Made by a program: the position numbers and the translations under genes. A stretch of DNA of 64,000 bases from Selenomonadaceae bacterium (lineage in GTDB: Bacteria > Bacillota > Negativicutes > Selenomonadales > Selenomonadaceae): contig JAFVEM010000038.1 in the NCBI GenBank assembly GCA_017476005.1, forward strand, positions 1 through 64,000. The letters are read 5' to 3'. Below are positions 2,164-63,937 of the stretch, in pieces. The notes beneath the pieces are model-generated. The model saw nothing but the letters and a program-made list of their open reading frames with translations, was not told where the DNA came from and did no database searches. The number at the start of each line of letters is the position of its first letter. Position 1 is the stretch's first letter.

Positions 2164-4296
2164 TCATTCTAAAAGCGATAGTACGCTGGACATAGCTTGA
2201 TTAGCCTGCGCCAACATGGATTGAGAAGCTTGCGCTAGGATGTTGTGCTTGGTATGCTCCAGCATTTCTTTAGCTATATCTGCGTCTCTTATGGTGCTTT
2301 CAGAGGCTTGGGTGTTCTCACTGGCCGTGACTAAATTGCTCTCGGTGTACTCCAGCCGGGAGATGTAGGAACCGACGGTGGTAGCCTCACCTATGGCATA
2401 ATCCAGCGCCCCGTCAATCACGCGAATAGCCACGGTAGCATCGTGTTGGGTGGTTACTATGGCATCGGCTAACGACATACTCCCCGCCTCGTTCAAAATG
2501 GCTTTTAATTGGGGATTCTGCGCTAAGTCATACCCGTCTTCTGCGGTGGGAATTTCTCCCTTTAGCGCGTCAGATTGCATATCTCCAATATAGCAATAAA
2601 GTGCCTGACCGGATTTGGTGCCGTGATGAATCACCAAAGGATGCCCTGAGATGGGAGTAGCAATTTCGCCGGCAATAGCAGCATGCCCGTCTCTACCATT
2701 ACCGATTCCTGAATAGGGGAAAAAAAGTTGGGTATCATCGGTATAAGCGGTAGATGGGTCAATATTTGCCAGCGTATCTCCGTCTATACGTATCATGTTT
2801 ATATAGCCATTATATCCAGTACCGATCACCGCCCCATCTTCGCTGGTATGTTGGATTGTAACATCACTGCCAATAACTACGTCTTGGGCTGTACTTCCAT
2901 TCTGTCCTGAGCCTATACCTGCCCCTTTCGTAGAAAAAGACGTTATGTTCGTTCCGGGGTAAATTGATATGTTGCCACAGCTACTCGCATCGCCTGCCCC
3001 AATGCAAGCACTAAGATTCCCATGAAGCTCCAAATTTGAATTCGCAATTTCGATATTACCGCAAGTACAATTGGGAAAACCGGAGCCTATGCCGGTATCG
3101 GTACAAATTGTTGATATATCAGAATCGACAATTAAGATATCGCCGCAGGAGGCACCACCGGAGCCGCTACCTATGGCCGCATGGTAAGCGCCATTGCCAT
3201 ATCCATTGGCATCAACCGTTCCGGCATTGGAAGCTATAACCGAATTCTCAATTTGAATATTGCCGACTGTGCCACCTATACCACTACCTATTGACGCGCC
3301 TGCCCCACCACCGAAAGAGGTATTATCAAAAGTAATGTTTGCATCGCATATACCAATGTCGCCGCATGTTCCACCTTGGTCAGAGCCTATGCCTGCTCCC
3401 TGTTGATGCCCCGAAATGGTAAGCGTGCTTGTACCATCCCCCTGCACCACCAAGCCTCCGCCGACGTTTATGATCGCGGTACTCCCCGACGCAGAGCCTT
3501 TCAAGCTATTGTCGCCCCTAATGCTCAGTACATTGTTGTCACCTTGGAAATTAATGATGTTGTCATCATCTGAATTAGTTATATCGAGTCCGTCAATCCA
3601 AAGATTTGCTCCGCCGCCACTAGGCCCTATTATATTTACATTGGTCAACCCGGTTCCCGACAGCTGGACATTCTTGGCTTTTATATTGATTGTGCCGCTA
3701 AAATCGCTGGGGATGGTATAGACACCGTCGGAATCTATGGTTGCGCTTGTGGCGCCTGTGTCGGGGTCAACGTCAACCGTGAAAGTTCCCGATACAGTAG
3801 GTTGAGACACGTTTTTCCATACGGTACTGTAGTTTAGGGGGGGCATTGAAGAACTAGGTGTCGAGCGGCCATAGCCTCCACGCAGCAACACTTTTCCATT
3901 ATAATTCGTCGTATTGGCAATATCATCAATGGTGAACACTCGCTCATCGAACTCTTGCTGCAAGATTTGCCTGTCAGCATCGCTGTTATGGTCGTTGGCC
4001 GCATTGATTGCCAGTTCCTTCAGGCTTCTTAACTCGCTTACGATGTTCTCAATGCCACCGGCAGCCACGCGCAGCATCGAGCGGCCATTCTGTACGTTTT
4101 GCACATCCTGATAAAGCGCGCGCAATCGCACTTGCATTTTCGCGCTGATAGCAAAGCCTGAGGCATCGTCCCCGGCACTGTTTAGCTTCACGCCGGAGGC
4201 CAACTTCCTCAATGCCTCGTTGCGTCGATTGATATTCCTGTTTACTTCACCAATCGAGAGCGTAGCTGCCATATTGTTCATCACTTTCATTGACAC
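2164..4296 (-). CDS. Flagellin with repeat-rich beta-helix-like insert
   Basis: A 710-residue flagellin. N-terminal flagellin helices span residues 1-140 and the C-terminal flagellin domain about 610-710 (ISRLEYTESNL, ANQAMSSVLSLLE). The roughly 450-residue insert contains eight IGxG-type repeats near residues 303, 336, 375, 403, 432, 461, 491 and 531. Several read IGSGxxGxxCGDIxI. This pattern resembles the parallel beta-helix repeats of Cthe_2159-like carbohydrate-binding surface proteins, so a glycan-binding or adhesive role is plausible but unproven. Repeat-region cysteines (CGDI, CTCGN) are unusual for a flagellin. The GTG start at 4296 is chosen because GGGAG lies 9 nt upstream; an ATG at 4290 is possible. 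It is the first gene of the flagellin operon, behind the 68-bp promoter element. Confidence 0.9.
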   Translation of the reverse strand: MSMKVMNNMAATLSIGEVNRNINRRNEALRKLASGVKLNSAGDDASGFAISAKMQVRLRALYQDVQNVQNGRSMLRVAAGGIENIVSELRSLKELAINAANDHNSDADRQILQQEFDERVFTIDDIANTTNYNGKVLLRGGYGRSTPSSSMPPLNYSTVWKNVSQPTVSGTFTVDVDPDTGATSATIDSDGVYTIPSDFSGTINIKAKNVQLSGTGLTNVNIIGPSGGGANLWIDGLDITNSDDDNIINFQGDNNVLSIRGDNSLKGSASGSTAIINVGGGLVVQGDGTSTLTISGHQQGAGIGSDQGGTCGDIGICDANITFDNTSFGGGAGASIGSGIGGTVGNIQIENSVIASNAGTVDANGYGNGAYHAAIGSGSGGASCGDILIVDSDISTICTDTGIGSGFPNCTCGNIEIANSNLELHGNLSACIGAGDASSCGNISIYPGTNITSFSTKGAGIGSGQNGSTAQDVVIGSDVTIQHTSEDGAVIGTGYNGYINMIRIDGDTLANIDPSTAYTDDTQLFFPYSGIGNGRDGHAAIAGEIATPISGHPLVIHHGTKSGQALYCYIGDMQSDALKGEIPTAEDGYDLAQNPQLKAILNEAGSMSLADAIVTTQHDATVAIRVIDGALDYAIGEATTVGSYISRLEYTESNLVTASENTQASESTIRDADIAKEMLEHTKHNILAQASQSMLAQANQAMSSVLSLLE

Positions 4297-4404: not shown

Positions 4405-4472
4405 TATATCGTGAAGTTTCTTCATAAACTTAATACTATCTGTGGAAATTTTTCACATCTTTTGTCGCCAAT
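4405..4472 (-). promoter_or_regulatory. 68-bp element with sigma-28-like promoter, flagellin copy
   Basis: Read on the minus strand, this 68-bp block is identical at 64 positions, without gaps, to 54901-54968 upstream of the flgT-like operon. It contains TTAA (4433-4430), a 16-bp spacer and CACGATAT (4413-4406). This fits the SigD/FliA pattern TAAA-N15-GCCGATAT. The spacer holds a dyad, AAGTTT-N6-AAACTT; two of the four differences fall in the N6 loop, so the arms are conserved. It lies 109 bp upstream of the flagellin start. Promoter function is inferred. Confidence 0.6.
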
Positions 4473-4874
4473 CGTTACTGTTATGTAGTGGCCTTTGTCA
4501 AGCCTCAATTTAAAAAATTTTGTCAGTCTGTCGCCCTTGCCCGAAGGCATATTGAAAAATCGCTCATTGGCTTTATCGGCGTAGGCAATGACTTCAGCAG
4601 AGTTCCCGTACTGCCGCGCTTTCAGTGCTTTCGATTTGTAGCCAATTTTGCCGCGCCCGTAACATTGCGCAGCTTCCGTCAACAACCGTCTCAAATGTGA
4701 GTTCCCTGCTTTGGTGATACTCAGACGGTTTTGATTATCGCTACTGGAACGCTCTCCAAGGACAAGTCCCAAGAAGGACGCATATTGTTCTGGTTTTTGA
4801 AAACGGTGGAAATCTCCTGTTTCGACAACCAGTGCCAACGCCGTATGAGTGCGAATCCCAATCATGCCCCTCAA
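4422..4874 (-). pseudogene. IS110-family transposase, C-terminal remnant
   Basis: A 150-codon open frame encodes the C-terminal transposase_20 region of IS110 enzymes: IGIRTHTALALVVETGDF, YASFLGLVLGERSS and ITKAGNSHLRRLLTEAAQCYG are diagnostic. The N-terminal DEDD catalytic half is absent. The C-terminal end appears frameshifted after ADKANERFF and reads through the IS end (about 4478) into the 68-bp promoter element. The upstream boundary coincides with the tRNA promoter region. No function is expected. Confidence 0.85.
4478..4538 (-). mobile_element. IS110-family 3' end remnant (right copy)
   Basis: On the minus strand this is the 3' end of the IS110 element, ending with ctacataacag at 4478. 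It matches 143-206 on the plus strand. The two copies are inverted, with their 3' ends facing inward toward the flagellin pair. Confidence 0.65.
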
Positions 4875-54854: not shown

Positions 54855-54903
54855 AATCCCCCTTTTCGTGTTTGCTAATCCTTCATTATAAAAAAGGGGG
54901 ATT
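54855..54903 (-). promoter_or_regulatory. Hairpin leader sequestering the XRE ribosome-binding site
   Basis: A perfect 12-bp inverted repeat, aatccccctttt (54855-54866) and aaaagggggatt (54892-54903). In the minus-strand transcript the second arm contains the Shine-Dalgarno 8 nt before the ATG at 54850. Confidence 0.55.
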
Positions 54904-54968
54904 GGCGGCAAAAGGTGTGAAAAATTTCCACAGATAGTATTAAGTTTGTGGAGAAACTTCACGATATA
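54901..54968 (+). promoter_or_regulatory. 68-bp element with sigma-28-like promoter, flgT copy
   Basis: 64 of 68 bases match the flagellin upstream element (4472-4405). TTAA (54940-54943), 16 bp, CACGATAT (54960-54967). The dyad AAGTTT-N6-AAACTT is conserved. The flgT-like start codon lies 51 bp downstream of the -10-like box. Confidence 0.65.
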
Positions 54969-55017
54969 CTGAAAGGGATGGGAGATCCTCAAACGTTAAA
55001 TTAGAGGGTGATGGACT

Positions 55018-56148
55018 ATGGAATGGTCAAAGAGGCGAGGCTTTGTCCGAATACTCACCGGCGCGCTACTTAGCGGCTGGTGTATTTGGACGTCCTCGCC
55101 TTTTGCTTTTGCCCAAACGGTGACGGTAACGGGGATGGGTTCCGACAGGAACAGCGCCTTGAACAACGCCAAGCGAGCCGCCGTCCGCGAGGTGGTGGGA
55201 ACGTACATCGATTCCCGGTCGCTGATGGAGAATGCGCGGATGGTGCTGGATGAGGTTTACGCTCGCACTCAAGGCTTCGTGCAAAATATCACCGTATTAA
55301 ATGAAGAACCTCGCGGCGACGACTATGTGATAAAAGCTCGCGTGGAAGTCAACACCCAGCCGGACTCCGCGCTGCTAAAAGAAATAGCCATGGTCAACGC
55401 CCTTAATGACCCACGCATAATAGTGACCATCGAGACGCAAGGGGGAGAGGATGGGAACAATTACGCCGCCTACTGCGTGGGCGCGATAAACGAACGCTTG
55501 GTAAAGGAAGGTTTTTCTCATGTTATCGCCGATGACCAATCAGCAACCGTCACTGATGAATTTGCGTCAATAAATAATGCGGTGAGCTATGAAGCGGATT
55601 ATCGCGTAGAGGGAAAACTGATTTTGCGTACGGGGGCGGTATTACTCCCCAAATACAGCGACCTAACCAATGAGAACGCCCAAGAGGCCAATGTGACCAC
55701 CGGACTTACTAGGACAACGGCCACCCTCGCCGCCAGAGTGGTGAAAGCAACTACCCGGGAGGTGCTGGGAGAATTTCAAGTAACCGGCGAGGGAATGCGA
55801 AATTCCGGCCACAGCGCCGAAGAGCAAGCCATATCAACCATGGCGCCCAAAGTAGCCGAAAAAGTACGGGAACTCTTTGCCCGGCACGCCTCCGGGATTA
55901 ACGGCAATGTGCAGGTAGTGGCGCGTACTGCGGATCCCAATGCCCTAACGGAACTGGAAAAGGCTCTGAAATCTCTAGCCGGGGTGCATAATGTGCGATT
56001 AAAAGACTATACGGGCGGCAAGGGGACTTTTTTCGTGGATACCGATTTATCCCCCAGCCAAATGTACCGCCGTTTGCGAGAAACGGGGACAGGGGTTTTC
56101 ATGGAGCGGTCTTCCGAGGGGGTGTTAGAAGTCAGCCTACAGGAATAG
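55018..56148 (+). CDS. FlgT-like exported protein
   Basis: 376 residues. Signal peptide to about residue 33 (PFAFAQ). Residues 34-115 match the FlgT N-terminal domain: VTVTGMGSDRNSALNNAKRA, VVGTYIDSRSL, ARTQGFVQNITVLNE, DDYVIKARVEV. The middle (about 125-290) has the CsgG/TolB-N-like alpha/beta pattern (PRIIVTIETQGG, RLVKEGFSHVIAD). In Vibrio FlgT builds the H ring around the flagellar basal body at the outer membrane; a related role is plausible in this diderm. First gene of an operon-like run with its own sigma-28-like promoter. ATG start with GAGGGTG upstream. Confidence 0.82.
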   Translation: MEWSKRRGFVRILTGALLSGWCIWTSSPFAFAQTVTVTGMGSDRNSALNNAKRAAVREVVGTYIDSRSLMENARMVLDEVYARTQGFVQNITVLNEEPRGDDYVIKARVEVNTQPDSALLKEIAMVNALNDPRIIVTIETQGGEDGNNYAAYCVGAINERLVKEGFSHVIADDQSATVTDEFASINNAVSYEADYRVEGKLILRTGAVLLPKYSDLTNENAQEANVTTGLTRTTATLAARVVKATTREVLGEFQVTGEGMRNSGHSAEEQAISTMAPKVAEKVRELFARHASGINGNVQVVARTADPNALTELEKALKSLAGVHNVRLKDYTGGKGTFFVDTDLSPSQMYRRLRETGTGVFMERSSEGVLEVSLQE

Positions 56149-56192
56149 TCTATTTAGCAAAAGAGAGCGAACCGTCAAATCGCCAACAAGCC

Positions 56193-56552
56193 ATGGTCAA
56201 TATGGCTCGTCAATATCTGGGAAGCCGGGAGTTTAACGGCTACTGCCAAAAATTTCTGCGTGTGGTGGGAGAACGGATTGGCTTGCCCTCGCATAAAACC
56301 CATTCGGCGTTGACGGCTTGCCGCCGCTGGCGCGTATCCACGGATAAAAATATCCCGGTAGGCGCCGCTATATATCTGCGCGGCAAAAAACGAGCCACCA
56401 ATGGCTATAAATACGGTCACGTTGGTATTTATGCCGGCGACGGTAAAGTAATTCATGCGCTGGCGACAGTACGCGAACAATCCCTAGAGGAAATATTGGA
56501 AACCTACAATTATTTAGGCTGGGGTTGGCAAGCAGGTGTTGATTTGCGCTAA
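56193..56552 (+). CDS. NlpC/P60-like protein without signal peptide
   Basis: 119 residues. MARQYLGSREFNGYCQKFLR holds the likely catalytic Cys and YGHVGIYAGDGKVIHAL the catalytic His, the NlpC/P60 order. No signal peptide is encoded and no Shine-Dalgarno lies near the ATG; a GA-rich tract (aaaagagag) is about 30 nt upstream. The frame stays open upstream to within the flgT-like gene but without a start codon. It may be a decayed remnant or be translated by coupling to the upstream gene, 44 bp away. Confidence 0.65.
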   Translation: MVNMARQYLGSREFNGYCQKFLRVVGERIGLPSHKTHSALTACRRWRVSTDKNIPVGAAIYLRGKKRATNGYKYGHVGIYAGDGKVIHALATVREQSLEEILETYNYLGWGWQAGVDLR

Positions 56553-56570
56553 ATATAAGGGGGTTATATT

Positions 56571-57740
56571 TTGGTAAAGTACAGAAAATTAACTTGGCTC
56601 CCGACAATTCTGGGAGTTATCTGCTGGGTGATGCTCTGGGCGACAAGTAGCGGCGAAGCCGCCAACATCAAGGACTACCCCAGAGTAGCCGTTATGCAGT
56701 TCGGCAACAAGGCGGTGATGAGCCAAGGACTTAGGGATCAAGACTTTAGCGCCGCTTCGGAGTATGCCATTTATCAGCTTTCGGCCAGCGGCTGGTTCGA
56801 TTTAATCGACTATGAACAACTCAGCACCATCGCCAAAATGCACAGCATAAATATGTCGGGCATGGTTGACCCGGCCACCGCCGTGGCCATGGGGAAATTT
56901 GCCGGAGCGCAGTTCATGGTGATAGGCAACCTCACGGGACTGACCACCAAGGAAAACGTGGTGGGCTACCAGCATGGACGGCGCGGTGAGCTGAATGTTA
57001 ATGAACATGTGGTAACGGCCAACGTAGCTATGCGTATTGTAGATATAGAAACGGGGCGTATTGTCGTAGCTGGACTTGGAAAGGGCAGTTCCACCAGTAC
57101 CTACAATGAAGTAGTATTCAAACGCTATCGCAATAAGAAAACGCGCAATACCCAAATCAATGACAGCGCCAACATTGGCAACAATGCCGGCACTGTCGAT
57201 AACGGCAATATTGATACTATTGACATGATAGACACGACGGATTCCCTGAATACCGGTGCCACTGATACCACCTACAACAGCGGCGAGGTGGTAGATCTCG
57301 GCACATTGGACAGTGGGGACACCACGGGAGGCACCGTTATCAATGATACCGTGGAGTTCCCGGCCGGTGACGGCGAAGACATGTATGTTGGCGATGAAAC
57401 GTATGGTGAAACATACAATGACACTTATGATGAAACCTATGCGGAGGGTGATGTTCCCGACCAGACTGGAGAAGACGGACTGGGGGGTGACAGCACTACC
57501 TACAGCACCAGCACCACTATCAATACCGACACCGGCACTTTCAGCCGTCAAGCAACGACCACAGTTACCGAAGAGGAGGAGGAAGAGGACTACAAAATAA
57601 AAATCGGCACCGTGGAAGTTTCGGACATACAAGTACGCAACGCCATCAGCAAGGCTGTCCGCGACGGTATTTACGGTAAGATGGGCTTGCTCACCACCCT
57701 TAACGGTGGGAAAGAGCTGAAGATAAAGACGGGATTTTAA
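56571..57740 (+). CDS. CsgG-like exported protein with acidic insert
   Basis: 389 residues. Signal peptide to about residue 31, no lipobox. The CsgG-type domain is PRVAVMQFGNKA, WFDLIDYEQLSTIAK, MVDPATAVAMGKFAGAQFMV and IVDIETGRIVVAGLGKGSS. It is interrupted at about 190-340 by a 150-residue Asp/Thr/Gly/Asn-rich low-complexity stretch ending in six Glu. The domain resumes with IKIGTVEVSDIQVRNAISKA. In CsgG this region lies near a membrane hairpin of the secretion pore. TTG start with AAGGGGG upstream. Second CsgG-fold protein of the cluster. Confidence 0.82.
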   Translation: MVKYRKLTWLPTILGVICWVMLWATSSGEAANIKDYPRVAVMQFGNKAVMSQGLRDQDFSAASEYAIYQLSASGWFDLIDYEQLSTIAKMHSINMSGMVDPATAVAMGKFAGAQFMVIGNLTGLTTKENVVGYQHGRRGELNVNEHVVTANVAMRIVDIETGRIVVAGLGKGSSTSTYNEVVFKRYRNKKTRNTQINDSANIGNNAGTVDNGNIDTIDMIDTTDSLNTGATDTTYNSGEVVDLGTLDSGDTTGGTVINDTVEFPAGDGEDMYVGDETYGETYNDTYDETYAEGDVPDQTGEDGLGGDSTTYSTSTTINTDTGTFSRQATTTVTEEEEEEDYKIKIGTVEVSDIQVRNAISKAVRDGIYGKMGLLTTLNGGKELKIKTGF

Positions 57741-57761
57741 AGTTTTAGAGGAGGGTGCAGT

Positions 57762-58739
57762 GTGCAGAAAAAATTTTTAATGCTATTGACGGCTTTGTTT
57801 CTGCTATCCGGTGTAGCTTATGCCGAGCAACCTGCGGCAGAACAGTATCGGCAGATGTTTAAGTCGGGGACGTTTTATGTGGAGTACAAAATAAGAAGTT
57901 ATACCGATTATCGCATGGCCGAAATCACCGAGAAATCCTTGAACAGTGGATTACTTGGTTTCTTGAACATATTTGGTGGCAACAACAAGGTAAAAATCGG
58001 AGACGATCGGGTTCATGTAATAGTTGATGAAAAGGATAATCGTCTAGTGGGAACCATTTTTGAAGAGAAAAGATCCGGCAGAGGGTTTGGTTTATTTGGC
58101 CTTGTCGGCAATTTAGGCGGTGGTAAGAAAAAATCGGTTGTTTATGATGTCATGTATAAAGACGGTAATTATTATCGTTTTTCGACCAGCCATGGTTGGC
58201 GCGCTTCGTTTTTTGGCGTGAGTCGCACAAATGAATTAAGAGCCTTCATGTTGCCGGTCGGTGAAATTAAAGCTGATTATTTGAATCCCGACGAACATTG
58301 GGACACTATAGAGCATGATTTGGCTTTGCCCGATGAATTGTCGGTCTTTGCTTGGCAGGATCGTTTTCACGTTGCCAAACCCGGTCAGCAAGCACCGCAA
58401 TTTAAAGAAAGCCTAAAATTAACCGAAGAAAAACAGGAATACGATTGTGACCGTTATGTGTCGGATATAAAAACTTTGGACGGCCAGGTTATTGCCCAAG
58501 TGACTTATGATTATTTGTACCAGGATGGAAAATTGGTAGCCGTGCGTACCTATTTTAATCGTAACGGTGTGGCTACTTTTGTTGGTGACATCGCTGTCGA
58601 AAAATTGGAAGAAACCTTGCCGGAGGACGCATTCAAGTTTAAGAAGAAAATTCCCGTATATGCTGCCGGTGTCGGTGATGCCAATGACTTATTGGGCAAT
58701 AAAGTGCAGATAGGTACGTTAGGAGATGATAAAAAATGA
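57762..58739 (+). CDS. Exported protein of unknown function (paralogue A)
   Basis: 325 residues with a signal peptide (LMLLTALFLLSGVAYA). The mature start AAEQYRQMFKSGTFYVEYKI and the end LYQDGKLVAVRTYF, EKLEETLPEDAFKF mirror the next gene. The beta-rich layout could be LolA-like, which is a guess. A Gly/Phe/Leu-rich segment (GRGFGLFGLVGNLGGG) lies near residue 110. The gene is more AT-rich than the window average. GTG start after GAGGAGG; it overlaps the next gene by 4 bp. Confidence 0.72.
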   Translation: MQKKFLMLLTALFLLSGVAYAEQPAAEQYRQMFKSGTFYVEYKIRSYTDYRMAEITEKSLNSGLLGFLNIFGGNNKVKIGDDRVHVIVDEKDNRLVGTIFEEKRSGRGFGLFGLVGNLGGGKKKSVVYDVMYKDGNYYRFSTSHGWRASFFGVSRTNELRAFMLPVGEIKADYLNPDEHWDTIEHDLALPDELSVFAWQDRFHVAKPGQQAPQFKESLKLTEEKQEYDCDRYVSDIKTLDGQVIAQVTYDYLYQDGKLVAVRTYFNRNGVATFVGDIAVEKLEETLPEDAFKFKKKIPVYAAGVGDANDLLGNKVQIGTLGDDKK

Positions 58740-59623
58740 TGAATATGTTGCGTTTCCTGTTTGTGGGTATATCGCTGTATGTTGTGGGCATACCTAACAT
58801 CAGCGAGGCCGCTATGTTAGATGCTTACAAGACCATGGTAGCCAACAAATCCTTTACCTTACGTTATCGGATTTTGGAAGAACCTAAGAGGCACTACGAA
58901 ACGGAATTGGATCTTTTTTTTGCTGACAGAAAAAAGGAAACTAATCCTTGGTGGCGTTCCATACCGTCCCATGGCATTTTGGTGGTGCGAGGCGATACTG
59001 TTTATACGGAAACCATCACTGGCTCGGAATGGCGCATTGGTAAAAAAAATACCGATGGCACATTAAATGAATATGAAAAGGATAAGGAGATTGGCGATTG
59101 TCGCTTGATAAAAAACGGTGAGGTATTTAATTTTCAACGGTTTCAACATTGGCATGAAGGTGTTGAGCAAAAACCTGATTATTATGGTGATGGTGTCGGC
59201 TATAACAAAGTGGAAGCAGGACGTGATGAATATGCCCGTTTTTTAGCTCCCTATGATATAATGGTGAAATATGCTAATTACGGTGATCCCACTCTAGATG
59301 CGTTGCTAGGCATAATCCATCATGACAGTAGCAGACAGATAGTATATACCCCTCAATACAGCCGAAAGGGGAGCGGCACCTTGCCAAGCGGTTTGGCCTA
59401 TGAAGATTATGCGGCGCAAGCTGGAGACGAATTTTATGCGGCCAGATTCTATTTTCAAAACGGTAAATTAGTAAGATTGGCATCGGCTGTTTATCCTACA
59501 TCACTCGATATTGAGAACAAGGGCTTCGAGCGTTTTGTCGTCAAAATTGACGAGTTTTCACCCACCCCCGAGGCACAGTATTTATCTCTGCCGGAAGGAG
59601 TAAAGGATATTACTAAACGCTAA
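58736..59623 (+). CDS. Exported protein of unknown function (paralogue B)
   Basis: 295 residues with a signal peptide (LFVGISLYVVGIPNISEA). MLDAYKTMVANKSFTLRYRI at the mature start and ARFYFQNGKLVRLASAVYP near the end correspond to blocks of the preceding protein, so the two are distant paralogues. Rich in Tyr, Arg and Asp, beta-type. Function unknown. Its start codon overlaps the upstream stop (ATGA), implying coupled translation. Confidence 0.72.
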   Translation: MMNMLRFLFVGISLYVVGIPNISEAAMLDAYKTMVANKSFTLRYRILEEPKRHYETELDLFFADRKKETNPWWRSIPSHGILVVRGDTVYTETITGSEWRIGKKNTDGTLNEYEKDKEIGDCRLIKNGEVFNFQRFQHWHEGVEQKPDYYGDGVGYNKVEAGRDEYARFLAPYDIMVKYANYGDPTLDALLGIIHHDSSRQIVYTPQYSRKGSGTLPSGLAYEDYAAQAGDEFYAARFYFQNGKLVRLASAVYPTSLDIENKGFERFVVKIDEFSPTPEAQYLSLPEGVKDITKR

Positions 59624-59643
59624 TTGTGAGGAGGGAAAGAGCC

Positions 59644-60390
59644 TTGTTATACATCAATCGTATGTCGTTAATAGCCTTAATCGTTTTAGTCGGTATGCTG
59701 TCAATGTTCGGTTTGGCTGAGGTGGCGGGTGCCGCTGACCAACCGTCCTGTGTTGTTATGAAGTTTTCCAATGACACTAGGTTCAAGAAAACTGATGCCG
59801 ACGCTGTACTGTCAGACTTAGTAGTTGAAAAAATGATAGCCAGCGGCAAGTTTCAAATGAAAGAGACCAGACCGCTTACCGCCGAAACAGAGGCATTGTT
59901 GTATGATGAAAACGCTCGCATGAAACAAGGTATGCGCGAAGTCATGCAAGGTGGCAGTTTTACTACACTATTTGAAGGTCCGGGTTTCAACAGCGTTGAG
60001 GCGTATTCCATAGCCTCTGCCGAACGTGGGCAACTCGTCAGCCCGGCCATAGTGAAAAAAATTGGACAGGATCACCAAGTTGATTATCTTGTCCAAGGCA
60101 CCATTGATTACATTGGTACAAGTAAAAAAAGTAATGAAGACTTTAGCACAGGGAAGATGACGGTGCGCTGTACTTTGCGACTGATACAGGCCAACACTGG
60201 TAAAGTCATTTGGATAAAATCACTGGATGCCAGCGATACCAACACAAGTATGAAAGTATCGTTTTTTACTATCGGTAGTAGCAAGTTGGATATGAATCTC
60301 TATTCTAAGATGCTAGATAAGGCCGCAAAAAAAATCGTAGAAAAACTGATAACTGATTTGGATGCCGGTTCCCTGTTAGCCGAGGCATAA
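59644..60390 (+). CDS. CsgG-like exported protein
   Basis: 248 residues with a signal peptide (SLIALIVLVGMLSMFGLAEV, cleavage near AGAAD). CSCG-fold features are CVVMKFSNDTRF, VVEKMIASGKFQMKETRP, QDHQVDYLVQGTIDY and TLRLIQANTGKVIWIKSLDA. More divergent than the neighbours at 56571 and 60404. The TTG at 59644 has GAGGAGGG about 9 nt upstream; the GTG at 59626 is in frame but would lack a ribosome-binding site and add basic residues before the signal. Confidence 0.72.
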   Translation: MLYINRMSLIALIVLVGMLSMFGLAEVAGAADQPSCVVMKFSNDTRFKKTDADAVLSDLVVEKMIASGKFQMKETRPLTAETEALLYDENARMKQGMREVMQGGSFTTLFEGPGFNSVEAYSIASAERGQLVSPAIVKKIGQDHQVDYLVQGTIDYIGTSKKSNEDFSTGKMTVRCTLRLIQANTGKVIWIKSLDASDTNTSMKVSFFTIGSSKLDMNLYSKMLDKAAKKIVEKLITDLDAGSLLAEA

Positions 60391-60403
60391 GGAGATGAAG
60401 GCG

Positions 60404-61063
60404 GTGGTATCTTGGAAGCGGATTGTTATTCTAGTAGCCATCTTTTTGCCGCTGACAGTTGGGGTGGCCGTAGCCGGTTTTGAATCGCATCCTACCGTCA
60501 TGGTGGCTGACTTTGGCATCAACGCCGGCGCGACGAGCCCTGAATTGCAGACGGCTAATGCCGGAAAAACAGCCAGTGAGGGCATTATCTATGCGCTCAC
60601 TAAAGACGGTCATTTTGATGTAGTGGACAGAGTACTGGTCGAAAAGCATATAGAAGCAGAGGGGTTGGATGTGGAGGGCTTGGTTGATCCTGACACCGCC
60701 AGACGACTCGGCCAGTTGCTCCACGCCCCATACCTTATCTATGGCAATGTAACTGATGTAAGTCTCAGTAGCACAGGGGTGCTGGCCAATGCGGAAGTGA
60801 GCGGTGGAGTAGGCGTGAGAACTGTCAAAGCCCATGTAACACTGCGCATGATGGACGTAGCCACCGGAGATATAGTAATGGCTGCCAAAGGAGAAGGCAA
60901 ATCAAAGTCTTCCACGACAATTATAGGAAAGGACATAGCCTATATCACGATTGGCACTGCAAAAGTCACTCAGGATGCCGTCCATAATGCACTGCAAAAA
61001 GCCGCGCAAAATGCGGTGGATATTTTGGTGGGGCGGTTGTACGGGGAAACTAATAAAAAATAA
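60404..61063 (+). CDS. CsgG-like exported protein, compact form
   Basis: 219 residues with a signal peptide (VILVAIFLPLTVGVAVAG), no lipobox. The CsgG-type domain is TVMVADFGINAGA, DGHFDVVDRVLVEKHIEAEG, LVDPDTARRLGQLLHAPYLI, VTLRMMDVATGDIVMAAKGEG and ITIGTAKVTQDAVHNALQKA. It lacks the insert found in the 56571 protein, so the two show where that insert lies. An ATG at 60395 is in frame, but GGAG directly abuts it; the GTG at 60404 gives 9-nt spacing. Confidence 0.82.
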   Translation: MVSWKRIVILVAIFLPLTVGVAVAGFESHPTVMVADFGINAGATSPELQTANAGKTASEGIIYALTKDGHFDVVDRVLVEKHIEAEGLDVEGLVDPDTARRLGQLLHAPYLIYGNVTDVSLSSTGVLANAEVSGGVGVRTVKAHVTLRMMDVATGDIVMAAKGEGKSKSSTTIIGKDIAYITIGTAKVTQDAVHNALQKAAQNAVDILVGRLYGETNKK

Positions 61064-61780: not shown

Positions 61781-63937
61781 GTGTTAAGCAAGAAGCTGAC
61801 GTTTATCTTTATGACAATGTTATCGTGTGCGTTGATGCTGTTGCAAAACGGTGAGGCCAGCGCCTTTAGCAGAGCCTATCCGGCTAACGGGGTTTATTCG
61901 CTTCAACCCAAATGCGCCCCTGGCGCGGAGCTTTCTACCGATGGGCAGAATAAGGGCTATGGCGCGAATGTAAATATTGTGCCGTATTCGGTGAGTAATC
62001 TAAAATGGCGGCTAACACGCATAGGAAGTACCCATTGGTATAAAGTAACCGTAGATGGTACCGACGATATGGGGCTAAATGTAGATAATGGTCGCAACAC
62101 TAGTGGTACCAATATTACAATATGGAAATATGGTGGAGCATGGCAACAATTTTGCTTTTGGGATGTTGGCGGAGGCTACTATCTTTTGCAAGGCAATATC
62201 GGTGCTAGTCAGGCAATGGTATTAGATGTAGCGGGCGGAGGCAGTGCTACCAGCGCCAATGTATGGAGCTATGGACACAATAACACCGACGCGCAACTAT
62301 GGAAATTGGTGCCTGCAAAGTCAAATCCTGCGCCCACTCCGACTAATAAGGTCACCAAAGGCGATGTAAATAATGATGGTAAAGTGGATCAGTCAGATGT
62401 AAATTTACTGGAAAGATACATCACCGGGCTGGTTTCCAGCCTACCCAATAAGGACGCAGCTGATTTAAATGGTGATGGAAGGATTACCCTTACGGATGTA
62501 ACAAGGTTGCAACAGTTAATACCAAGCTCTGACAATACCTACACCACAATGACCGATGGTTGGTACAGGATTTCGCCGCAACATGTTTTATCTATGTCGA
62601 TGGATGCCTTGGGTACTAACAATAATCTCCATATGTACAATAGCTTAGATGTCTCCCAGCAAAAATTTTACCTACAAAACAGAGGACAAGGGTGGTTTAG
62701 CCTTAAATCAGGATATTCCGATGTATATGTAACCGCCCAAGGTGGTAATGTCGGTGCTAATCTCTACATGTCAAAATGGCAAGGAACTGGCTCGCAATTG
62801 TTTAGAGTTGTTTCTGCCGGTAACGGATACTATCATATTATGTCATATCTAGGCTCCAATCTTAATTTCGATTGCGCCGGTGGTGGCACAGGCAACGGAA
62901 CCAACGTGCAGCTTTGGACGAAAGAAACTCAATCGCCGCATCATAAGTGGAAGTTTACTAAGGAGAGTGCGCCTGTCACTAGTCATAATCCTGAAGGGCG
63001 TGTTGAGAGCGTAGTGAGCAATGCCCCCGGGCAAATTACAGTCAGAGGTTGGGCTTTTGACAGAGATGATATGAATAGAGCCATTGAATTGCATGTGTAT
63101 GTGGGGAATACGAGGTCTGATAACGGTGGTGAAAAACACACTGGTATAATAGCTAACAGAGCTAACAGTTCTAGTCCCGGACACGGCTTTGAAGCTACTT
63201 TTGCTACAAATAAGACTGGCAATCAGCCTGTTTATGTTTATGGCATCAATATTGGTGGTGGGGCAGACGCTAATATGGCGGCATCACCAATGAGGGTTAA
63301 TATTCAACCAACAACTAACGTGAATCCTTATCGCCAAAATGCTTTGGCAACTGCGAAGGCCATGGTTGAAGTAGAATGGACTGCTCCTTGTGATTTTGTT
63401 ACTTGGTGTTCTTCAGGTGGTGGATATAATCCCGTAACTGCCGTTGATGGTACATCTGCTTATAAATTTATCGCAGGCAAAAGATACAAAGGTATTCCGT
63501 ATTCTATGGCTGGGCGTACATATACTAAGGACAGATTTTTAAGCTATTTGAGTTCTCACAATGCAACCTCTCAATATCAAAAGAAATACTACTCCCATGG
63601 AAAGGTTACTACCGGCGTGGGGATTGACTGTTCCTATTTTGTCTGGACGGCACTTAATGCTTCAGGAGCGTCCAGAAAAATAGGTGGCAACTATACCACT
63701 ACCGGTACATTACTAAATTCTGGATGTTTTTCAGCTCGTAGTTACGATAACATGAAACCGGGAGATATTTTTCTCAAGAGCGGTCATGTGATGATGTTGG
63801 TAGAGAAAAACGGTAACAATTTCGTAGTGTATGAGGCAGTGGCTACTAAGTCTAAATGTAGCCAAAGCACATACTCTCGTAGCTATCTTACAGGGCAAGG
63901 TTATAAAGGCTACACATTTACCGGGTACGGTGACTAA
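61781..63937 (+). CDS. Secreted ricin-dockerin-ricin-NlpC/P60 protein
   Basis: 718 residues. Signal peptide to about residue 27. Ricin-type beta-trefoil 1 at about 36-178. Type I dockerin-like module at 191-247 with calcium loops DVNNDGKVDQSD and DLNGDGRITLTD. Trefoil 2 at about 255-395. A beta-sandwich at 400-508 (GRVESVVSNAPGQITVRGWA). C-terminal NlpC/P60-like peptidase with Cys617 (GVGIDCSYFVW) and His669 (SGHVMMLVE). It should bind glycans and cleave peptide bonds in cell-wall or other glycopeptides outside the cell. AT-richer than the core genes, which suggests transfer. GTG start after AAAGGAG. Confidence 0.85.
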   Translation: MLSKKLTFIFMTMLSCALMLLQNGEASAFSRAYPANGVYSLQPKCAPGAELSTDGQNKGYGANVNIVPYSVSNLKWRLTRIGSTHWYKVTVDGTDDMGLNVDNGRNTSGTNITIWKYGGAWQQFCFWDVGGGYYLLQGNIGASQAMVLDVAGGGSATSANVWSYGHNNTDAQLWKLVPAKSNPAPTPTNKVTKGDVNNDGKVDQSDVNLLERYITGLVSSLPNKDAADLNGDGRITLTDVTRLQQLIPSSDNTYTTMTDGWYRISPQHVLSMSMDALGTNNNLHMYNSLDVSQQKFYLQNRGQGWFSLKSGYSDVYVTAQGGNVGANLYMSKWQGTGSQLFRVVSAGNGYYHIMSYLGSNLNFDCAGGGTGNGTNVQLWTKETQSPHHKWKFTKESAPVTSHNPEGRVESVVSNAPGQITVRGWAFDRDDMNRAIELHVYVGNTRSDNGGEKHTGIIANRANSSSPGHGFEATFATNKTGNQPVYVYGINIGGGADANMAASPMRVNIQPTTNVNPYRQNALATAKAMVEVEWTAPCDFVTWCSSGGGYNPVTAVDGTSAYKFIAGKRYKGIPYSMAGRTYTKDRFLSYLSSHNATSQYQKKYYSHGKVTTGVGIDCSYFVWTALNASGASRKIGGNYTTTGTLLNSGCFSARSYDNMKPGDIFLKSGHVMMLVEKNGNNFVVYEAVATKSKCSQSTYSRSYLTGQGYKGYTFTGYGD

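Follow-up and report, generated by a model that had tools for sequence, protein, structure and literature searches.

Do genes for FlgT-like and CsgG-like proteins that stand side by side in a flagellated bacterium belong to the flagellum, to a secretion pore, or to something else? This question is raised by a cluster of seven open reading frames (ORFs) that the ORF table places on the + strand at 55018-61063 of a 64,000-nucleotide stretch of DNA from a Selenomonadaceae bacterium (contig JAFVEM010000038.1), here called the window. An earlier note on this DNA had read the cluster as seven exported or envelope genes in a row that may form a flagellum-associated ring or pore. All seven ORFs are present at the place given there. 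One of them, an NlpC/P60 domain ORF, is not clearly exported. The other six form a conserved operon with the order FlgT-like, CsgGa, U1, U2, CsgGb, and CsgGc (Table 1). The operon has a fixed gene order, tight spacing, exported leaders, and domains of known superfamilies, and it is present in genomes that lack a flagellum. Our tentative reading is that the operon is conserved and non-flagellar, that it moves horizontally, and that in some Negativicutes it encodes a periplasmic complex lying under the outer membrane.

Gene order and distribution of the operon

To gain a better understanding of the cluster, we examined its neighborhoods across Negativicutes. With strict ORF calls, the exact six-gene order was found again in 12 other loci, including three Phascolarctobacterium genomes. 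The gaps between operon genes in these loci are mostly a few bases or are replaced by 4-base overlaps, and the U1 and U2 reading frames of the window also overlap by 4 bases. In one further genome the order is kept from CsgGa to CsgGc on a contig that starts within the FlgT-like gene. U1 is present in 43 of 350 Negativicutes genomes and is confined to two families. A concatenated tree with midpoint rooting grouped the window cluster with those of Phascolarctobacterium (support 100), inside the Selenomonadaceae clusters. Because the two group in this position, the tree suggests that the operon was transferred between families. In another genome (G002, L086:555-6838) the U1-U2-CsgGb module is doubled in tandem with an ORF for 237 amino acids between the copies.

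Table 1. Features of the cluster and its surroundings in the window.
Feature	Position	Strand	Basis or remark
Shared 69-bp promoter-region element	54900..54968	+	TAAGTTT-N14-CGATA at 54941-54966; exact motif match
FlgT-like exported protein	55018..56148	+	Family scans, FlgP profile match, alignment
NlpC/P60 domain ORF	56193..56552	+	Lineage-specific insertion, outside the conserved operon
CsgGa, exported, CsgG domain	56571..57740	+	Pfam CsgG 46 bits; alignments
U1, exported, predicted LolA/RseB/LppX-type fold	57762..58739	+	AlphaFold2 (AF2) model of ortholog L122
U2, exported, U1 homologue	58736..59623	+	hhalign; ORF table
CsgGb, divergent CsgG-superfamily exported protein	59626..60390	+	Pfam CsgG 22.4 bits; matches of relatives
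CsgGc, CsgG-superfamily exported protein without lipobox	60395..61063	+	Pfam CsgG 57.3 bits; AF2 model
Ricin-type lectin / dockerin / NlpC-P60-like secreted protein	61781..63937	+	Pfam; neighborhoods; candidate client

The starts of CsgGb and CsgGc in Table 1 are those of the ORF table; the earlier note had 59644 and 60404. The NlpC/P60 ORF was seen only in the window genome and is missing from the corresponding place in relatives, so that this insertion was ruled out as a member of the cluster. It scored 22.6 bits against a Pfam cut-off of 23, and no signal peptide was seen in it, even when the frame was read upstream. Its product shares 68% identity with residues 535-653, the C-terminal 119 residues, of a secreted 653-residue lectin/SH3/NlpC protein of G002, and the ORF seems to be a domain or fragment that has become detached. 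In several relatives, secreted lectin/NlpC-type proteins similar to the one at 61781..63937 are again encoded downstream of the cluster, and they are possible clients of an envelope complex.

Flagellar genes and the promoter region

The idea that the cluster forms a ring or pore associated with the flagellum, at least in the window species, is favored by three observations. The window species is flagellated, the FlgT-like protein has a FlgT/FlgP-type domain, and a nearly identical 69-bp promoter region is common to a flagellin gene and the FlgT-like gene. Distribution across genomes argues the other way. Searches for flagellar genes found neither flagellin nor FlgI in the three Phascolarctobacterium genomes, from gut bacteria, that carry the complete six-gene order, and it is among these clusters that the closest relatives of the window cluster lie. 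FliG was not found in any of the six U1-bearing genomes of the second family, two of which are rated 99-100% complete. Likewise, neither flagellin nor FlgI was found in Mitsuokella multacida and M. jalaludinii, which keep a FlgT-CsgG pair. For Phascolarctobacterium and Mitsuokella the lack of flagella is judged from these genome searches, since the literature on their motility gave no information. In a first survey, the FlgT-like gene was present in 25 of 51 flagellin-bearing genomes and in two of nine flagellin-less ones, so that it is also missing from many flagellated relatives. Thus, the neighborhood survey bore out the conservation of the cluster and also placed it in bacteria without flagella, an outcome that the earlier note had itself named as refuting its proposal. 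Because the whole set occurs in gut bacteria that lack a flagellum, it is not a flagellar ring in its conserved function, and the data do not support a conserved flagellar role.

The earlier note also pointed out that the flagellum of a diderm Firmicute must pass through an outer membrane. For this passage the window genome already encodes FlgA, FlgH, and FlgI, proteins that have been reported in Negativicutes generally (PMC5007114). Apart from flagellins 50 kb away, no flagellar structural genes adjoin the cluster. Given also the promoter results described below, we consider a flagellum-associated ring or pore very improbable even in the window species. An LPP20/FlgP-like gene (L088:2647-3798, - strand; 22.5 bits, cut-off 25.9) that adjoins the FlgF/FlgG-FlgA-FlgH-FlgI genes of the window genome is more likely than the cluster to be a flagellar accessory.

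The promoter shared with flagellins proved to be a stronger similarity than had been claimed. A block of 69 bp with 94% identity lies upstream of both the flagellin gene at 2164-4296 and the FlgT-like gene, with the flagellin copy at 4405-4473 (- strand) and no third copy in the genome. The motif TAARTTT-N14-CGATA has five exact matches in the genome, of which two precede flagellin genes and one precedes the cluster. This similarity does not extend to relatives, where the best upstream matches to the motif at FlgT-like genes scored about the same as shuffled sequence. None was clearly above the shuffles, which rules out a flagellin-type promoter as a conserved feature of the cluster. Because of these scores, the 69-bp element is apparently a local acquisition, and the operon would have picked up a flagellin-type promoter in the window species. 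The remnant of an IS116/IS110/IS902-type transposase lies at 4422-4874 (- strand; Pfam 62.9 bits). Since this remnant reaches with its 3' end into the copy of the element at the flagellin gene, mobile DNA may have been involved in the acquisition. It follows for annotation that neither a FlgT or CsgG label nor a promoter of the flagellin kind is enough to call a gene flagellar.

Domains and predicted folds

The FlgT-like protein has an N-terminal domain of the FlgP/FlgT_N type (SHS2) followed by a middle domain that is weakly CsgG-like and by a C-terminal domain to which no family was assigned. The window protein itself is below threshold for FlgT_N (16.2 bits against a curated cut-off of 28.8) and also for LPP20. 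Its family fits the earlier assignment better: 14 of 20 members match FlgT_N, weakly (best E 2.4e-5), and 7 of 20 match CsgG. A search of the PDB with the family profile matched Campylobacter FlgP (9HMF, E 1.4e-5) without gaps over chain residues 86-168. Within this stretch is an insert that has been linked to ring formation (PMC12222027), and it lies inside the gap-free alignment. As a comparison, the Vibrio H-ring proteins FlgO, FlgP, and FlgT and the basal disk of Campylobacter FlgP (PMC12222027, PMC6375700) share with the cluster the N-terminal domain with its insert, and also the middle-type domain (FlgT_M) of the CsgG superfamily, to judge from relatives of CsgGb and from the predicted fold of CsgGc. 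By contrast with the Vibrio system, the cluster occurs without flagella, its FlgT-like protein in the window does not match FlgT_C, and it is a separate operon that encodes proteins with a predicted LolA fold.

All three CsgG-like proteins scored above the Pfam CsgG cut-off of 20.8 bits, as the earlier note would lead one to expect. Alignments showed that CsgGa carries a long insertion, rich in D, T, N, and E, at the site of the second membrane hairpin of CsgG. In Phascolarctobacterium (L091-L093) this insertion is enlarged and CsgGa reaches 447-571 residues. A profile search of the PDB with CsgGb gave nothing significant; all 16 of its relatives match CsgG and 8 of the 16 match FlgT_M. For CsgGc, a single-chain AF2 model was built from 19 sequences, with a predicted local distance difference test score (pLDDT) of 78.5. 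Foldseek matched this model with CsgG (E 2e-8), GNA1162, FlgT, PelC, and LpoB. VIA comparisons gave Z 12.8 to FlgT (176 residues, root-mean-square deviation 4.4), 12.7 to CsgG (157 residues, 4.1), and 12.3 to PelC 5t0z_B (134 residues, 3.0), values that we treat as ties. The predicted fold of CsgGc is thus of the CsgG/FlgT-M/PelC/TolB-N kind, in line with the CsgG/FlgT fold that had been anticipated.

The folds raise the question of whether any of the CsgG-like proteins assemble into a beta-barrel channel in the outer membrane that exports the downstream secreted proteins. Several features would fit this. CsgGc aligns with most of the length of the Pfam CsgG model, its predicted structure has long hairpin strands (with no resolved tip in the first hairpin), some stretches of the CsgGc hairpins have one face about as hydrophobic as in Escherichia coli CsgG, and secreted lectin/NlpC proteins recur downstream. 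On the other side, a lipobox was found in none of the 19 CsgGc proteins and in none of the three CsgG-like proteins of the window. The CsgGc hairpins are shorter than those of E. coli CsgG, the second is less hydrophobic, and in the window protein a charged residue falls within the best face of the second hairpin. Two relatives of CsgGa (L039, L044) have no room for either hairpin when compared with CsgG of E. coli MG1655. An analysis of the hydrophobic faces was mixed and gave no decision on a pore. As the earlier note had stated, no CsgA, CsgB, CsgE, or CsgF family was matched by Pfam among the nine window proteins scanned. Because the lipobox is missing, a secretion pore of the CsgG type is doubtful, and we regard an export channel as quite unlikely. 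The curli channel resembles the cluster in the CsgG domain of all three window proteins and in the overall fold of the CsgGc model, and differs from it in its lipidated cysteine, its longer hairpins, its CsgE, CsgF, and curlin partners, and the absence of three divergent paralogues in one operon.

U1 and U2, the proteins encoded between the CsgG-like genes, are related to each other, as had been proposed; a comparison of their profiles with hhalign gave E 6e-8 and a probability of 94.7. Neither matched a Pfam family in the scan of window proteins, and PDB profile searches gave nothing significant for either. We modeled U1 through its ortholog L122 with an alignment of 22 sequences that included the window protein, and the AF2 model had a pLDDT of 82.1. 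In VIA comparisons, nearly all of the 50 best rows were LolA, LolB, RseB, MucB, LprG, LppX, VioE, or EPDR1. The best Z was 10.0 over 171 residues, to a LolA-like protein, and the Z to RseB was 8.5. U1 is thus predicted to have a fold of the LolA/RseB/LppX type, with an N-terminal helix and an open beta-barrel as in that superfamily, and the same is predicted for U2 by homology. The LolA family itself (PF03548) had no match in the 21 Negativicutes genomes searched, the window genome and 20 relatives, and a lack of LolA in Negativicutes has been reported before (PMC5007114). The predicted fold of U1, and by homology of U2, bears on the handling of hydrophobic periplasmic cargo in Negativicutes, a class with no known LolA or LolB.

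Proposed complex and related gene sets

Together, these data lead us to propose, tentatively, a non-flagellar periplasmic complex. The FlgT-like protein and the three CsgG-like proteins may form one or more rings under the outer membrane, perhaps hetero-oligomeric, by analogy with PelC under PelB and with FlgT/FlgP around the flagellar rings. Like LolA and RseB, U1 and U2 would bind a client that is hydrophobic or carries a lipid, and would deliver or sense it at the ring, and the ring and binders together might serve surface export or assembly of the outer membrane. We infer the formation and location of the ring, its cargo, and its direction. In the window, the proteins of this operon carry leaders of the Sec type that lack a lipobox, and components that are lipid-anchored elsewhere are, to judge from these leaders, soluble exported proteins here. 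The FlgT/CsgG operon of diderm Firmicutes would then be a lipid-free form. PelC, which forms a periplasmic ring on PelB (PMC12141448), has the same fold as the CsgGc model, but PelC is lipidated and acts together with the PelB barrel, and the operon encodes no PelB-like barrel.

Several points weigh against this reading. The operon encodes no outer-membrane barrel and no ABC transporter. The structure models are single chains of the U1 ortholog and of CsgGc, and no ring was predicted or seen. Foldseek gave no match under E 0.001 for the U1 model, and LolA-type folds also serve as sensors.

A sensor function is part of an alternative in which the cluster regulates the cell wall or the response to envelope stress, with the CsgG-like proteins as LpoB-type activators of peptidoglycan synthases and U1 and U2 as RseB-type sensors. 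LpoB is the best PDB profile match of the CsgG set (E 5.8e-6) and belongs to the same superfamily by both sequence and fold, RseB is among the best fold matches of U1, and NlpC/P60 proteins are found near the cluster. LpoB is, however, a lipoprotein of the outer membrane, whereas the CsgG-like proteins have no lipobox and no partner gene was recognized in the cluster. Neither the ORF table nor the Pfam scan revealed a gene for a penicillin-binding protein, a sigma factor, or an anti-sigma factor there, and conservation of the cluster does not extend to the NlpC ORF. We consider this alternative unlikely. A narrower version of the periplasmic-complex reading makes U1 and U2 carriers of hydrophobic cargo on a new route from the periplasm to the outer membrane. 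Such a route would dock on a ring of the FlgT/CsgG type and would in part do the work of the Lol system in a class where LolA and LolB are missing. This narrower version is distinctly improbable in our estimation. U1 is like LolA in predicted fold, whereas the operon has no LolCDE and U1 occurs in a minority of Negativicutes. Because of this limited distribution, such a route could not be the general replacement for Lol.

No published account of the cluster was found in the literature on FlgT/FlgO/FlgP with CsgG or on CsgG in Selenomonas and in Negativicutes. With its conserved order, FlgT/FlgP-type domain, and CsgG-superfamily folds, it is apparently an undescribed multi-paralogue envelope cluster, as far as this literature goes, and a variant within known superfamilies. 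Its wider meaning is that ring domains of the FlgP/FlgT type and proteins of the CsgG type are joined in conserved operons that belong to neither flagella nor curli.

The window genome holds several sets of FlgT/CsgG paralogues, of which the present cluster is one. A sister set, with the order FlgT-like, CsgGa, c2, CsgGd, and c3, was found in 14 loci, including one in Selenomonas ruminantium; c2 is a distant relative of CsgGb. A contig of the window genome (C29) carries a set similar to this sister set, and there a Cas2-like ORF for 97 amino acids (L039:10453-10743; 29 bits, cut-off 23.8) lies between the FlgT-like and CsgG-like genes. A reversed arrangement, CsgG-like and then FlgT-like, recurs in Negativicutes (L040, L051, L053, and L059). 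Its CsgG-like protein bears an extra C-terminal domain, and some of these loci have a further FlgT_N/LPP20-type gene downstream. More distant pairs of neighboring FlgT-like and CsgG-like genes were found in Geobacter, Desulfobacterales, Planctomycetes, WOR-3, and Marisediminitalea (L141-L169), hinting at a wide family of FlgT/CsgG-type envelope operons.

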